A stretch of DNA of 64,000 nt from Elainella sp. Prado103. Its GTDB lineage: Bacteria; Cyanobacteriota; Cyanobacteriia; Elainellales; Elainellaceae. Below, in pieces: positions 25,682 through 32,296 of this stretch. Each line of letters starts with the position of its first letter. Positions within the stretch are counted from its first letter, which is position 1. The translations under genes were made by a program, and so were the position numbers. Below the pieces are notes generated by a model that had not been told where the DNA came from, made no database searches, and saw nothing but the letters and a program-made list of their open reading frames with translations. Location of the stretch: the NCBI GenBank assembly GCA_025454395.1, contig JALOOM010000025.1, positions 1 to 64,000 of the forward strand, written 5' to 3'.

Positions 25682-28582
25682 CTAAGCCATCGTTAGGCAA
25701 CCTTCCAGAGCTTGCAGCAAATCTTTATCCAGATAGGGCTTCGTTAAGTAGGCTTTAGCCCCCAACTGGGTTGCCAACTGACGATATTTTTCGCTACTGC
25801 GATAGGTCAACATCAAAACAGGGACGGTGATTCCTTGTTGACGACAGCGGCTTAACACCTCTAACCCATTCATGCGGGGCATTTCAATATCACAGATCAG
25901 CGCTGCCACATCGGTATGCAATCTGAGTTGGGCGATCGCTTCCCAACCATCCTTGGCTTGCAGCACTTGATAGCCCGCCTTGGCTAATGTTTTGGAGAGG
26001 GCGTGACGAATCGTCAGCGAATCATCCGCAATCAAAATTTTGGGAACGGCAGGGGTTCGACGAGCTTGAATTGGCATAGATTCCCGTGGTAGTTGAGACA
26101 CCTGCCGCCATTTCTCAACCAATGCTGAGCCATCTAACACCGGCACCAACCGACCATCCACCAGAATCGTACAGCCCGACAAACAGGCAGGGGGCGCAAT
26201 CGCATCGTTAAAAGGTTTCACCATCATGTCTTGCTCTAAAACAATGTGATCGACCTTCAAGGCCAGGATCATGCCACCATGGGACAACAACAGTAAGGGA
26301 AAGTTCTTTGTCCGTTGCCAGGCCGGATCAGACCGCTTTAAGGGTTTTTCACCCTCTAGCACACGGGGGTAATGATAGGTCAATAGCAAAGATTCGGGAT
26401 AGATCGGCACAAACTGGCCTTGCCAATGGTAGTACTGATACCCAGCTTCGGTTTGGAACACTTGTTCCGAGGCGACAGTAATCGCCTCTAACATCTCAAC
26501 GGGGATCGCCAGCAAATTCTCCTGAATACTGAACACCAGCAGCTTCGTGATGGTCAGGGTCAGCGGTAAGCGTAGGGTGAAGCTCGTGCCTTTACCAGGC
26601 TGAGAATCAACCGTGACCGCCCCTTTCATGGCTTGAATTTGAGCTTGCACGGCATATAAGCCCATGCCCCGACCGGAGAGATCATTGACTTCTTCGGTTG
26701 TAGAAAAACCTGGAGCAAACAAATAATCCATCAGTTGTTGATGGGTCAGAGCTGCTGCCGTTTCTGCTGCAATCAAATTGAGGGCGATCACAGTTGTCCG
26801 CACCTGATCAAAATCAATGCCTTGACCATCATCCCGTACCTCTAGATAGGTCTGATTACCCCGATGCCAGGCCCGAATCGTAATGTGACCTTGGGCGGGT
26901 TTGCCAAGCATTTGCCGGACTTCCGCTGGCTCGATACCATGATCAAACGCATTCCGTACCAGGTGAACGAGTGGATCATAAAGCTTTTGCAGGATGGCTT
27001 TATCAACCAGAGTCTGCGTGCCTTTGAGTTCTAAAACCACGGGTTTTTGTTCCGCTTCGGCCAGGTCACGCACCATGCGGGGAAATTGGTTGAGTAATTC
27101 GCTGACTGGCAGCATCTGCGCCTGAAACAGGTTGCGCTGTACTTGCTTCAGTGTTTTTTGTTTTTGTTTATCAATCTGCTGTAACCGCTGATCCAGCAGC
27201 ATCAGATCTTGGATTGCCTCACCGAACTGCGCCAGTTCTTCCACGATCGACTGGGTGGTGGACTGTAAGTAAGCCTGTCCTCGGGCTTGCAGGCGACGAG
27301 AGCGCTGCTGATCTGCTGTCACCGCTAGCCGAGAAGCCGGTTGCTGTTGTGCCCAGCGGCTTAAACTGACCGCCAGTTGCCGGACGCGACCGAAAGATTG
27401 GGTCAGAAATTCTAAGGTTTCGATTTGCTGATCTCGCTGCGATCGAAATCGATTATCTTGCGTGACCAACTCACTCACTAAATTGGTCAGTGGCTCTAGC
27501 TGTCCGCCTTCCGGCCGCAAACCCAACCGTGGGGTCGGCGGGGGAGACAGCCGGGTCGAAAACATCGGTTGGGCCGGCACCAGCGCAGTGGTGGTAGGAG
27601 GGGGAGTATGCGGAGAGTCTTCCCACCCAGCAGTCCGCCGTTCTGGTGCTGCCAATTCCGCCAGGCTCGATCGAGCATAGGAGCTATGGCTTTCAAGACT
27701 CAGAGACAGCAGATCAGCATCTGGGAGGGCCTGGAGGGCTTGCCAAATTGCCTGACTGATCGATCGCACCTGATCCGGTCGATTTTGGAGGTCAGATAAC
27801 CCTTGCTCTGCCACCTGAATGAGGCGATCGTTCTGAGCCAATTCACCCAAACCTCTAAAAATTTCGAGCTGGGCAGCCAGCACACTGGCATTCGTAAATG
27901 CTTCGGCAGCCACCTGGGTATCACCACCAGACTCACTCCCAGCTTGCCAATCCAGTTGGGAGCGCAGGACATCTAGCCGGTGGATGCCAGACCTTAATTC
28001 TTGCAGGAACAAATCCTGGCTGAAGAATTCAACCGATGCCTGCTCGCCTGAATGGGCTACTTCTGGAGCTTCTATTCTCACTGGCAGAGTCGAATCAACC
28101 GTTGGCAGCGAGTAGCTGAGCGGGATGACGGGCGGCTGCCAGTCCTCCTCCTGCCCGGTAAACGACACAGGAGCGGCCAGGGTTTTGAGTTGAGTCGCTA
28201 GCGTTTGCCAAACTGGGCTACTGAGAGCAGCCAAGGCGATATCATCACTACAGCCGGTTTCCAGTTCTTCTAGCAGGGGCATTTTCAAACAGTCAAACGC
28301 CTGCAAAATCAGATTTTCCAGGGCAAGGTCGATCGGAACAGCGCGATCGGAACAGGCCTTCAGCACCGTTTCTAATTGATGTGCCAAAGTTTGAATCTGC
28401 CCTAAACCTACACAGGCAGCCCCCCCTTTGAGCGAGTGAGCCGCTCGCATGAGCCGATAAATTTTCGCCACACTGTGGTCAGACTTTAAGTCTAGTAGCC
28501 CTTCCTCCAGGGTTTGTAAGAGTTCCGGTACTTCTTGGAGGAAGAACTGATAAGACTCAGAGGGACGGAAGTCAGAAACCAT
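25682..28582 (-). CDS. pixL: CheA-type hybrid histidine kinase of a phototaxis system (PixL-like)
   Basis: A 966-residue chemotaxis kinase. Domains in order: Hpt (1-110) with the phosphoryl-accepting His49 in RAAHSLKGGAACVG; a variable region; a dimerisation helix region; ATPase with N box LVHLVRNAFDHGIEP, G1 DDGQGIDF and G2 GRGMGLYAVQAQI; a CheW-like domain (SIQENLLAIPVEMLEAI); and a C-terminal receiver (about 845-963) with phospho-Asp in ALICDIEMPRMNGLEVL and Lys in AYLTKPY. CheA plus receiver is the PixL/TaxAY1 and PilL layout. It follows pixJ by 75 bp, a gap with a 15-bp unit (TAAAATGACGAGGTC) repeated twice. It should receive signal from PixJ through PixI and pass phosphate to pilus-motor regulators. 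pixG and pixH are not in the window. Confidence 0.93.
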   Translation of the reverse strand: MVSDFRPSESYQFFLQEVPELLQTLEEGLLDLKSDHSVAKIYRLMRAAHSLKGGAACVGLGQIQTLAHQLETVLKACSDRAVPIDLALENLILQAFDCLKMPLLEELETGCSDDIALAALSSPVWQTLATQLKTLAAPVSFTGQEEDWQPPVIPLSYSLPTVDSTLPVRIEAPEVAHSGEQASVEFFSQDLFLQELRSGIHRLDVLRSQLDWQAGSESGGDTQVAAEAFTNASVLAAQLEIFRGLGELAQNDRLIQVAEQGLSDLQNRPDQVRSISQAIWQALQALPDADLLSLSLESHSSYARSSLAELAAPERRTAGWEDSPHTPPPTTTALVPAQPMFSTRLSPPPTPRLGLRPEGGQLEPLTNLVSELVTQDNRFRSQRDQQIETLEFLTQSFGRVRQLAVSLSRWAQQQPASRLAVTADQQRSRRLQARGQAYLQSTTQSIVEELAQFGEAIQDLMLLDQRLQQIDKQKQKTLKQVQRNLFQAQMLPVSELLNQFPRMVRDLAEAEQKPVVLELKGTQTLVDKAILQKLYDPLVHLVRNAFDHGIEPAEVRQMLGKPAQGHITIRAWHRGNQTYLEVRDDGQGIDFDQVRTTVIALNLIAAETAAALTHQQLMDYLFAPGFSTTEEVNDLSGRGMGLYAVQAQIQAMKGAVTVDSQPGKGTSFTLRLPLTLTITKLLVFSIQENLLAIPVEMLEAITVASEQVFQTEAGYQYYHWQGQFVPIYPESLLLTYHYPRVLEGEKPLKRSDPAWQRTKNFPLLLLSHGGMILALKVDHIVLEQDMMVKPFNDAIAPPACLSGCTILVDGRLVPVLDGSALVEKWRQVSQLPRESMPIQARRTPAVPKILIADDSLTIRHALSKTLAKAGYQVLQAKDGWEAIAQLRLHTDVAALICDIEMPRMNGLEVLSRCRQQGITVPVLMLTYRSSEKYRQLATQLGAKAYLTKPYLDKDLLQALEGCLTMA

Positions 28583-28657: not shown

Positions 28658-31600
28658 TTACTGCACTTTGAATTGGGCCGCACTTTCTTGCAGCTCATGG
28701 GCCACGCCCAACAACTGCTGGAAAGAAGCCGCAACTTGTACCGATTGCTCGGAAGTGGTGTGAGCAATTACCTCAACCTCTTGCATGGTGCAAGACACCG
28801 AAGTAGAAGCCTTGGTTTGAGCCACCGCAGCTTGAGCCATTTGTTCGACCAACTCCCGAATTTCGCCGCTGACGATCGCAATCGAGTTAAGCTTTTGGCG
28901 AGTGGTTTCGACCAGTTCCGTTCCTGAGATCACCTGATCTAGCCCAGACTCCATCGCCATCACGACCTGGTTGGTTTCCGCCTGAATCTCTTCCACAATT
29001 TGTTCAATTTCACGGGTGGCTGCACTCGATCGCTCCGCCAAAGAACGCACCTCTTCTGCTACCACCACAAAGCCCTGTCCTTCTGAAGAACTGTTGGCTT
29101 CAATGGAAGCATTCAAGGCCAGCACATGAGTTTGATTCGCCAAATCCCGAATTAGGCTAACCACCCGCGAGATCTTCTGGGAAGCTTCACCCAATCGCTT
29201 CACTTTTTGGGCTGTTTCACCCACCGTTTCTTGGATCGTCAAGATCCCATCCACGGTTCGATTCATCGCCTCATCCCCATCCCGGAGAGTTTGGTTCGCC
29301 TGCTGCACCTTCAGTTTTGCCGCCTGAGCATTAGCCGCAACCCCTTGCAGGGACTCTGCCATCATTTGAATCTGCCCGAGAGCAGTGGTAATCGCCTCCG
29401 CCTGACGTAACGCCTCCGTTGATAGCGTGTTGACCTCCTCTTCGCTACTGCGGGCCGTTTGACCCACCGCATGAGCCGCCGACTGCACTTGCAGCACAAT
29501 CTGCTGAAGGTTACCGATCGTGGCATTGAGGAACTCCGCCACCGTCCCAATTTCACCCTCCAACTGGCGACCCCGCACTGTGAGATCCCCCTGCAACACA
29601 TCCCTGACATCCGTCAATAAGTTTTCCAGTTGATTTTGGATGGCTTCTTTTTGTTGGCGCTGCTCTTGGGAGGCGAGTTCCGCCTGCTGTCGGGATTGCT
29701 CTAAGGTTTCAATAAACCGAATGTGATCGAGTGCATATTCTAATTGGGTCGCGAGTTCAGAGAAAAAGTCAATATCGGTTCGATGCCATGCCCTTGCGCC
29801 AGAACAGTGGTGGGCAATCAGCAGCCCTGCCAAGCCACCGGACTGGCGAATCGGGGCCACCAAGTTCGCTTTGACATCATATTGCTCTAGCGTTCGGATA
29901 TGACAATCGGACAGTCCCGGTTCTTCGTAAATATTGTTGATCGCCCGAACCCGCCCATTCCGATACAGCTCCACATAGCGCCCCCGAAAACAAGGGTCGT
30001 CGATTTTAGCATCCAGCACCTTGGGAAATCCGGGCATCACGGCTTCTGCCACCATCGTGCCACTCCAATCGGCATTGAACCAATACACCATCACCCGATC
30101 GGTTTTCAGCATACGCAATGCCCCTTGCACCGTCGTTTTATAAACATCTTCCCGGCTGAGGGATTGGCGGGCTCGAAAGGCAATATCACCGAACAGGCGC
30201 GATCGACCGAGCACCGCTTGACTGCGCTCCAGGAAGCTCAAATGTTCGATAGCATAGTCCAGTTGGGTGGCGAGTTGAGCAAAGAAGTCAATCTCGGTCT
30301 GGCTCCAAACACGGGTCGAGGCACATTGATGGGCGATCAAGAGCCCAGTCAGTTCATTGTTTTGCCGCAGCGGTGCGACCAGATTGGCCTTCACGCCATA
30401 TTTTTCCAGGGTACGAATATGGCAATCGGTCAGCCCAGGTTCCTGGCGAATATTGTTGATCGCCCGAACCCGCCCATTGCGATACAGTTCAACATAGCGC
30501 CCTCGAAAACAGGGGTCATCAATTTTTTCATGCAGCACCTGCGGAAATCCCGCCGTTACGGATTCTGCAATCATGGTGCCGCTCCAGTCTGGATTGAACT
30601 GATACACCAGCACCCGATCGGTGTTGAGCATCTGTCGGGCTCCCTGCACCGCTACCTGAATTACATCCTGGAGATCGGCAGATTGGCGAGCCCGAAAGGC
30701 GATTTCACCGAAGAACCAAGCCCGTTGTGCCGCTGCCTCCTGCTGGTTAAAGGAGGTGACATAGTCGAGGGCATATTCCACTTCTGTGGCCAGTTGGGAC
30801 AAAAAATCAATATCAGCTTGCGTCCATTGGCGAGCACTCAAGCACTGATGGGCAATCAGCAGTCCGTAGAGGGCTTCATCTTGGCGAATCGGCACCACAA
30901 GATTGGCCCGCACCCGGTATTGCTCCAACAGACGGATATGGCAGTCTGTGAGTCCCGGCTCTTTATAAATATCTGTGATCGCTCTTGTCCGTCCATTTTG
31001 ATATTGCAGTGCATGACGCTGCCGAAAACAAGGATCACCGATGGTTTCATTCAGCACCTTGGGTAATCCCGGTGCGATCGACTCCGCCACCATTGTGCCG
31101 CTCCAATCAGGGTTAAATCGATAAATGACGACGCGATCGGCGGCCAAAAACTGTCGGGCTCCTTCTACCGTCGCCTCATACAACACAGACAGCTTAGGAG
31201 ACTGGCGCGTCCGAAAAGAGAGATTACTCAAAAGCTGCCGCTGCTGGGTCTGGCGAGCCTGTTGCTTAGACATCATTTGCAACTGGGCAGAGAGCTGTTT
31301 CAGCTTTTCCTCTAACCGCACCAGCTCATTGCCTTCCACATGGCTCAACCGACCTTGTCCCAGTTGATTCACCACCGCATTGGCACTCTCTAGCGGTCGC
31401 AGCACCCGCTGAGTCAACAAATTGGCAGCAATCGCAGCAACCATCGCAGTGAATAGACTGCCAAACACCACTGTATTGAGGGGACTCGGAAAAAAGTAGC
31501 TGATCCAGCCAATCAATAAGACCGGCATCGTACTAAAAATCACTGCGCCGATCGCAATTTGCTGCTTCAGCCCCAACCCCATCCAACCACTCGACGGCAG

Positions 31601-31771
31601 CACGGGAGCAGGCAACCCAGATTTCACCACATCAGAGGGTGCTCCGACCTCTTCTTCTAAGTCAGGAGAGAACTCCAACTCATCTAGAATGCTAGCGGAG
31701 AACGGGTTTTCGCCTAGAGAAGGACTCTCCGGAGAATTGATATCTGAGAATTGATGGAAATTTTCGGGCAT
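28658..31771 (-). CDS. pixJ: PixJ-like phototaxis receptor: methyl-accepting protein with three DXCF cyanobacteriochrome GAF domains
   Basis: A 1037-residue receptor. A cytoplasmic N-terminus (1-70) is followed by two membrane segments (about 72-94 and 101-120) and a HAMP-like region (120-175). Three GAF domains lie at about 185-340, 355-512 and 530-685, repeating every 173 residues. Each has both cysteines of DXCF-type cyanobacteriochromes: DPCF at C248, C421 and C594 and the bilin-binding Cys-His at C277, C450 and C623, always 29 apart. The C-terminus (about 760-1037) is an MCP signalling domain with tip LANQTHVLALNASIEA. This matches PixJ/TaxD1, where a phycoviolobilin-type GAF senses blue/green light for type IV pilus phototaxis. 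GAF2 and GAF3 share long identical stretches, pointing to recent duplication. Whether all three bind bilin is inferred. Confidence 0.92.
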   Translation of the reverse strand: MPENFHQFSDINSPESPSLGENPFSASILDELEFSPDLEEEVGAPSDVVKSGLPAPVLPSSGWMGLGLKQQIAIGAVIFSTMPVLLIGWISYFFPSPLNTVVFGSLFTAMVAAIAANLLTQRVLRPLESANAVVNQLGQGRLSHVEGNELVRLEEKLKQLSAQLQMMSKQQARQTQQRQLLSNLSFRTRQSPKLSVLYEATVEGARQFLAADRVVIYRFNPDWSGTMVAESIAPGLPKVLNETIGDPCFRQRHALQYQNGRTRAITDIYKEPGLTDCHIRLLEQYRVRANLVVPIRQDEALYGLLIAHQCLSARQWTQADIDFLSQLATEVEYALDYVTSFNQQEAAAQRAWFFGEIAFRARQSADLQDVIQVAVQGARQMLNTDRVLVYQFNPDWSGTMIAESVTAGFPQVLHEKIDDPCFRGRYVELYRNGRVRAINNIRQEPGLTDCHIRTLEKYGVKANLVAPLRQNNELTGLLIAHQCASTRVWSQTEIDFFAQLATQLDYAIEHLSFLERSQAVLGRSRLFGDIAFRARQSLSREDVYKTTVQGALRMLKTDRVMVYWFNADWSGTMVAEAVMPGFPKVLDAKIDDPCFRGRYVELYRNGRVRAINNIYEEPGLSDCHIRTLEQYDVKANLVAPIRQSGGLAGLLIAHHCSGARAWHRTDIDFFSELATQLEYALDHIRFIETLEQSRQQAELASQEQRQQKEAIQNQLENLLTDVRDVLQGDLTVRGRQLEGEIGTVAEFLNATIGNLQQIVLQVQSAAHAVGQTARSSEEEVNTLSTEALRQAEAITTALGQIQMMAESLQGVAANAQAAKLKVQQANQTLRDGDEAMNRTVDGILTIQETVGETAQKVKRLGEASQKISRVVSLIRDLANQTHVLALNASIEANSSSEGQGFVVVAEEVRSLAERSSAATREIEQIVEEIQAETNQVVMAMESGLDQVISGTELVETTRQKLNSIAIVSGEIRELVEQMAQAAVAQTKASTSVSCTMQEVEVIAHTTSEQSVQVAASFQQLLGVAHELQESAAQFKVQ

Positions 31772-31783
31772 CCGGGCTCACCT

Positions 31784-32296
31784 CTAATCTGCTTTTAATA
31801 AATCCAAAATTTTTTCGCCATCTAGAATCAGCATCGTTTTTTGCTCACTGATTTGATAAGAACCTTTCAGGCAAAAGGCCAATCGTGGAGTCATTTCGAT
31901 CACCAGGGCAGGCTGCAAGGGTTGAATTTTGTGGCTGGGCAGTAGAATCAGTTGCCCAACTTGCCGCACAGCGACCCCCACATGCGATTGAAACCGCTTA
32001 ATCACCATGACACTATAAAGCTGGCGATAATTTTGCGTAAATAAGGATTCAAACCCCAGCAAACAGGCTAAGTCAACAATCCATAACACCTCACCTCGGT
32101 GATTCGAAATGCCCATAATGGCATCCGAGAGATCAAAAATAGGCACAATCTGCCCAGATTCAAGGCTGAGAATTTCCTCGAGTTGATCCGTCGGCAGCAG
32201 TGCTTGTATCTCGGTTGTGACATCAAAACTCAAAAATTGTTGGGATCGAGCGGGTCTTACGGCGGCTGGCTCAGTTAGGCCGGAAGTATCACTCAT
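31784..32296 (-). CDS. pixI: CheW-like adaptor of the phototaxis operon (PixI-like)
   Basis: A 170-residue CheW-domain protein that couples the receptor to the CheA-type kinase. The core matches the fold: FLSFDVTTEIQALLPTDQLEEIL, IVPIFDLSDAIMGISNHRGEVLWIVDLACLLG and VAVRQVGQLILLPSHKIQPL. It is 12 bp upstream of pixJ and on the same strand, so pixI-pixJ-pixL form one operon. The two response regulators (pixG, pixH) that open the Synechocystis operon are missing here. A 9-bp perfect inverted repeat GCTCGATCG/CGATCGAGC (32363-32403) lies in its leader or promoter region. Confidence 0.9.
   Translation of the reverse strand: MSDTSGLTEPAAVRPARSQQFLSFDVTTEIQALLPTDQLEEILSLESGQIVPIFDLSDAIMGISNHRGEVLWIVDLACLLGFESLFTQNYRQLYSVMVIKRFQSHVGVAVRQVGQLILLPSHKIQPLQPALVIEMTPRLAFCLKGSYQISEQKTMLILDGEKILDLLKAD

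Follow-up and report, generated by a model that had tools for sequence, protein, structure and literature searches.

Cyanobacterial light receptors that carry several GAF domains are already known. PixJ1/TaxD1 of Synechocystis, which belongs to the pixGHIJL cluster, is a membrane MCP with GAF domains and with CheW and CheA partners; it has two such domains, and bilin is found only in the second (PMC5812497), which fits the background given in an earlier sequence-only reading of the present locus, where PixJ is a receptor with a single photoactive GAF. PtxD of Nostoc punctiforme (NpF2164) is a phototaxis receptor with seven GAF domains, at least six of them bilin-binding (PMC5812497), and PixJ proteins have been described with one to five (PMC13383048). 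The receptor analysed here, encoded in a 64,000-nucleotide window of DNA from Elainella sp. Prado103, therefore joins a known kind; what is notable about it is that its array is of a single class and anciently fixed. It resembles PixJ1/TaxD1 in architecture and partners but has three GAF domains instead of two. With PtxD it shares the combination of a multi-CBCR MCP and a che-like cluster, whereas PtxD displays photoconversions between six colours and has two two-cysteine domains, all three GAF domains of the window protein being DXCF. No paper on a triple-DXCF MCP was found in the literature searched, in which coverage of specialist DXCF-class journals was thin, and a prior description is possible. 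The features of the locus, in window positions, are the following.

28658..31771, minus strand: PixJ-like MCP with three DXCF CBCR GAF domains, 1037 aa (ORF, Pfam and PDB sequence match)
31412..31564, minus strand: two hydrophobic segments, a probable transmembrane hairpin, residues about 70-120 (translation read by eye)
30728..31246, minus strand: GAF1, residues 176-348 (C248 codon 31028-31030, C277 codon 30941-30943)
30209..30727, minus strand: GAF2, residues 349-521 (C421 codon 30509-30511, C450 codon 30422-30424)
29690..30208, minus strand: GAF3, residues 522-694 (C594 codon 29990-29992, C623 codon 29903-29905)
28772..29233, minus strand: MCP signalling domain, residues 847-1000 (Pfam PF00015, E 3.1e-32)
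31784..32296, minus strand: CheW (PixI-like), immediately upstream (Pfam PF01584, E 1.1e-16)
25682..28582, minus strand: CheA-REC hybrid kinase (PixL-like: Hpt, HATPase, CheW, receiver), immediately downstream (Pfam)

The residues, spacings and coordinates given by the sequence-only reading for three tandem GAF domains with DPCF and Cys-His motifs all proved correct on the translation. In the 1037-aa product, Pfam recognizes three GAF stretches (E 1.1e-61) and the MCP signalling domain, which together with the membrane anchor, read from the sequence by eye only, give the layout of a PixJ-type MCP. Each GAF domain contains a DPCF motif (C248, C421 and C594) and a (T/S)DCH motif with the Cys-His residues (C277, C450 and C623), the two cysteines being 29 residues apart in all three pairs. 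The domains succeed one another with a period of exactly 173 residues and zero indels, and the period was identical in all five orthologues measured. Chance can be ruled out for the array, given the constant period and the retention of each cysteine by 32 of the 33 domains compared. Pairwise identity amounts to 54% between GAF1 and GAF2, 55% between GAF1 and GAF3 and 66% between GAF2 and GAF3. Around the DPCF motif, GAF2 and GAF3 reach 86% nucleotide identity as compared with about 70% outside; recent gene conversion was considered and rejected, because a peak of the same kind, if lower (73-80%), is seen in the orthologues and constraint suffices to account for it. A 388-aa ORF lies antisense to the GAF array on the plus strand (29900-31066); it probably arises incidentally from the repeats in the coding sequence.

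Judged by their sequences, the three GAF domains fall into the DXCF lineage of cyanobacteriochromes. The best PDB sequence match is TePixJ (3vv4, E 1.9e-38), and in a tree of 110 GAF rows, with TePixJ, AnPixJg2 and NpR6012g4 among the references, all three fall within one group; of its 28 rows, 27 have both DXCF and Cys-His/Tyr. Cys-less GAF domains lie mostly outside this group. The match and the tree agree with the DXCF class proposed earlier for this PixJ-like MCP, as do those pocket residues that are kept (Tyr463, Asp492 and Arg507), and the grouping is with Cys-bearing DXCF domains rather than with Cys-less ones. The TePixJ domain (3vv4, 4glq) has the same DPCF and Cys-His ligands and the same Asp492, Arg507 and Tyr463, and is likewise part of an MCP protein; however, it is only about 42% identical to window GAF3 and occupies another DXCF branch of the tree. 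Its cysteines (C494 and C522) are 28 residues apart instead of 29 because one residue is inserted directly before the Cys-His ligand in the window protein ('EPGL' in place of 'AGL'). In the 33 domains of the window protein and ten orthologues, the equivalents of Asp492 and Tyr463 (TePixJ numbering) are kept throughout, those of Arg507, the DXCF cysteine Cys494 and the canonical cysteine Cys522 in 32 each, and Phe495 in 32 or 33, while position 523 is His in 29 domains and Tyr in 4. The sole exception for the cysteines is GAF3 of the L056 orthologue, from Xenococcus sp. MO_188.B8, in which both were lost at once; the domain itself remains, its motifs now reading DPFF and DFY.

The pocket also departs from that of TePixJ. 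His498 is replaced mostly by Arg, Trp499 mostly by His or Tyr, and Gln526 by Leu, Thr or Met; in TePixJ, His498 and Trp499 touch the B-ring propionate of the bilin (PMC6955287). Blue/green sensing, as had been suggested for all three domains, is the default of the DXCF class with PVB (PMC11284453), but in view of these changes the colours, or the occupancy of the pockets, could differ from it. Several columns are, moreover, fixed differently at the GAF1, GAF2 and GAF3 positions. Among them is the propionate contact 499, which is His in GAF1 and Tyr in GAF2 and GAF3; position 515 of GAF2 is mostly Arg. From the few sequences behind these position-specific residues, there is a hint that one pocket could not simply stand in for another.

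Across cyanobacteria, the GAF1s, GAF2s and GAF3s cluster by position in the 110-row tree, and the array was therefore made once, before these lineages split; by this phylogenetic evidence it is old and has been long retained. Orthologues with three DPCF domains occur in Pegethrix bostrychoides, apparently within the genus of the window genome, in another genus of the family (G017), in Xenococcaceae, Hyella and Prochloraceae, and in others; two of the loci, L033 and L051, were counted once, being of equal length (146,566 bases) and apparently one contig. Among 390 genomes sampled from the class, four beyond the window's own match the array, with 64-80% identity, and the gene is patchy, being present in two of the five genomes searched in its genus. 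Array length has altered by one copy in an orthologue with four DPCF domains (L153, genome G357). A two-GAF, 545-aa ORF of the same receptor family (L058 / L168), whose L168 match contains one in-frame TAA, is possibly a broken gene. Nostocales also possess MCPs with three tandem DPCF GAF domains; that of Brasilonema (L061), in which Pfam detects the MCP domain, aligns to the window protein over nearly its full length at about 42%. Unlike the window protein, the Nostocales receptors are without the 'EPG' insertion, and an adjacent CheA was not found in most of the loci examined. In other branches, too, DPCF domains stand in tandem, with the number of copies ranging from three to at least five. 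The five-fold MCP of Gloeomargarita sp. SKYG116 (L098) and its relatives (L155-L158) resemble the window protein in joining such arrays to an MCP domain, but their five copies are mostly of the CHLQQ type, have two linker lengths and form separate tree groups.

In an AlphaFold monomer model (pLDDT 82.7, pTM 0.56), unbroken helices of about 46 residues join the GAF domains, and each canonical cysteine is placed at the start of a helix; in Foldseek, the model matches phytochromes and a cyanobacteriochrome kinase best. The stretch between the end of one GAF domain and the next measures 68 residues in 186 and 75 in 21 of the 216 joints from all loci, which are distinct but related and hence not independent. 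The two lengths, a step of seven residues apart, together account for 207 of the 216. Regular spacing in CBCR tandems has been noted before and read as coiled-coil coupling (PMC6798134).

The CheW gene is likewise upstream of the receptor gene in Pegethrix (L051) and Prochloraceae (L053), and CheA comes after the MCP in seven orthologous loci. Beyond these neighbours at the window locus, a kinase-WD40 gene in divergent orientation comes next upstream, and a peptidase S66 gene in convergent orientation next downstream. The pixGHIJL cluster holds a PATAN-CheY and a CheY; in contrast, no match to a PixG-type PATAN-CheY was found at the window locus, and no adjacent CheY (PixH) is present among the genes beside the receptor. 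The genome encodes heme oxygenases, three ferredoxin-dependent bilin reductase family genes and pilT. When its CBCRs were collected by family search, contigs C72 and C101 proved to encode PixJ proteins of the canonical type, which combine a single GAF lacking DXCF with a single DPCF GAF; CheW and PATAN genes lie close by on both. PATAN and CheW genes accompany MCP-type GAF proteins on three contigs of G000 (C72, C84 and C101). The receptor at 28658-31771 is not the genome's canonical pixJ. Accordingly, the PixJ-like assignment holds as far as a PixJ-type MCP with CheW and CheA-REC neighbours is concerned; a phototaxis role is what we infer, because the canonical-type proteins sit at C72 and C101 and the present locus is without a PATAN gene.

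These observations bear on how many of the domains work as photosensors. It is highly improbable that they are non-bilin GAF domains sensing another ligand, with incidental cysteines: the replaced propionate contacts and Gln526 would agree with this, but the tree position and the conservation of Asp492, Cys494, Arg507, Cys522 and Tyr463 led us to reject it, and in the L056 exception the cysteine pair was lost jointly. An unlikely, though less remote, alternative is that only one or two of the three domains are photoactive in the cell, while the rest keep their cysteines but serve as spacers for structure or dimerisation, a role that GAF1 of Synechocystis PixJ1 may have. The single bilin of PixJ1 speaks for this, as do the residues fixed differently by position. 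Silent domains would, however, be expected to lose their cysteines, yet all three positions keep both outside L056 GAF3; and among the loci collected there is no GAF domain with DXCF alone, those without the Cys-His ligand being without DXCF too.

Somewhat more plausible, while still improbable in our estimation, is that the receptor reads light for something other than phototaxis, such as sensitivity, adaptation or another output. In Phormidium lacuna, PixJ is a light-induced down-regulator of photophobotaxis sensitivity and not the sensor itself (PMC13383048), and the PATAN genes that accompany CheW and MCPs elsewhere in the genome are absent here. On the other hand, CheW and CheA-REC flank the receptor, pilT is present, and clusters can share response regulators.

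We consider it likely that the gene encodes a membrane-anchored PixJ-type receptor in which three bilin-binding, photoswitching DXCF GAF domains feed the MCP tip and CheA-REC. Each domain would bind a phycobilin, PCB being attached at the Cys-His cysteine, and the DPCF cysteine would form a second, light-labile link, so that light may switch the domain from a state absorbing blue to one absorbing at a longer wavelength, probably green, and back. The long continuous helices could relay the state of all three domains along one stalk to the MCP tip, which with the adjacent CheW would control how active the neighbouring CheA-REC kinase is; the kinase might then act on type IV pilus motility via response regulators encoded elsewhere. 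It is tempting to speculate, although we regard this as rather doubtful, that the readout combines the three related yet distinct blue/green switches, so that a single CheA receives a graded or cooperative signal of light intensity or of colour ratio. The cysteine loss in L056 GAF3 is a natural test of a receptor with two active GAF domains. A same-class array with fixed spacing, distinct by position, is a cleaner system than the mixed-colour PtxD, and appears well suited to asking why cyanobacteria stack their light sensors, whether for colour range, sensitivity or integration.
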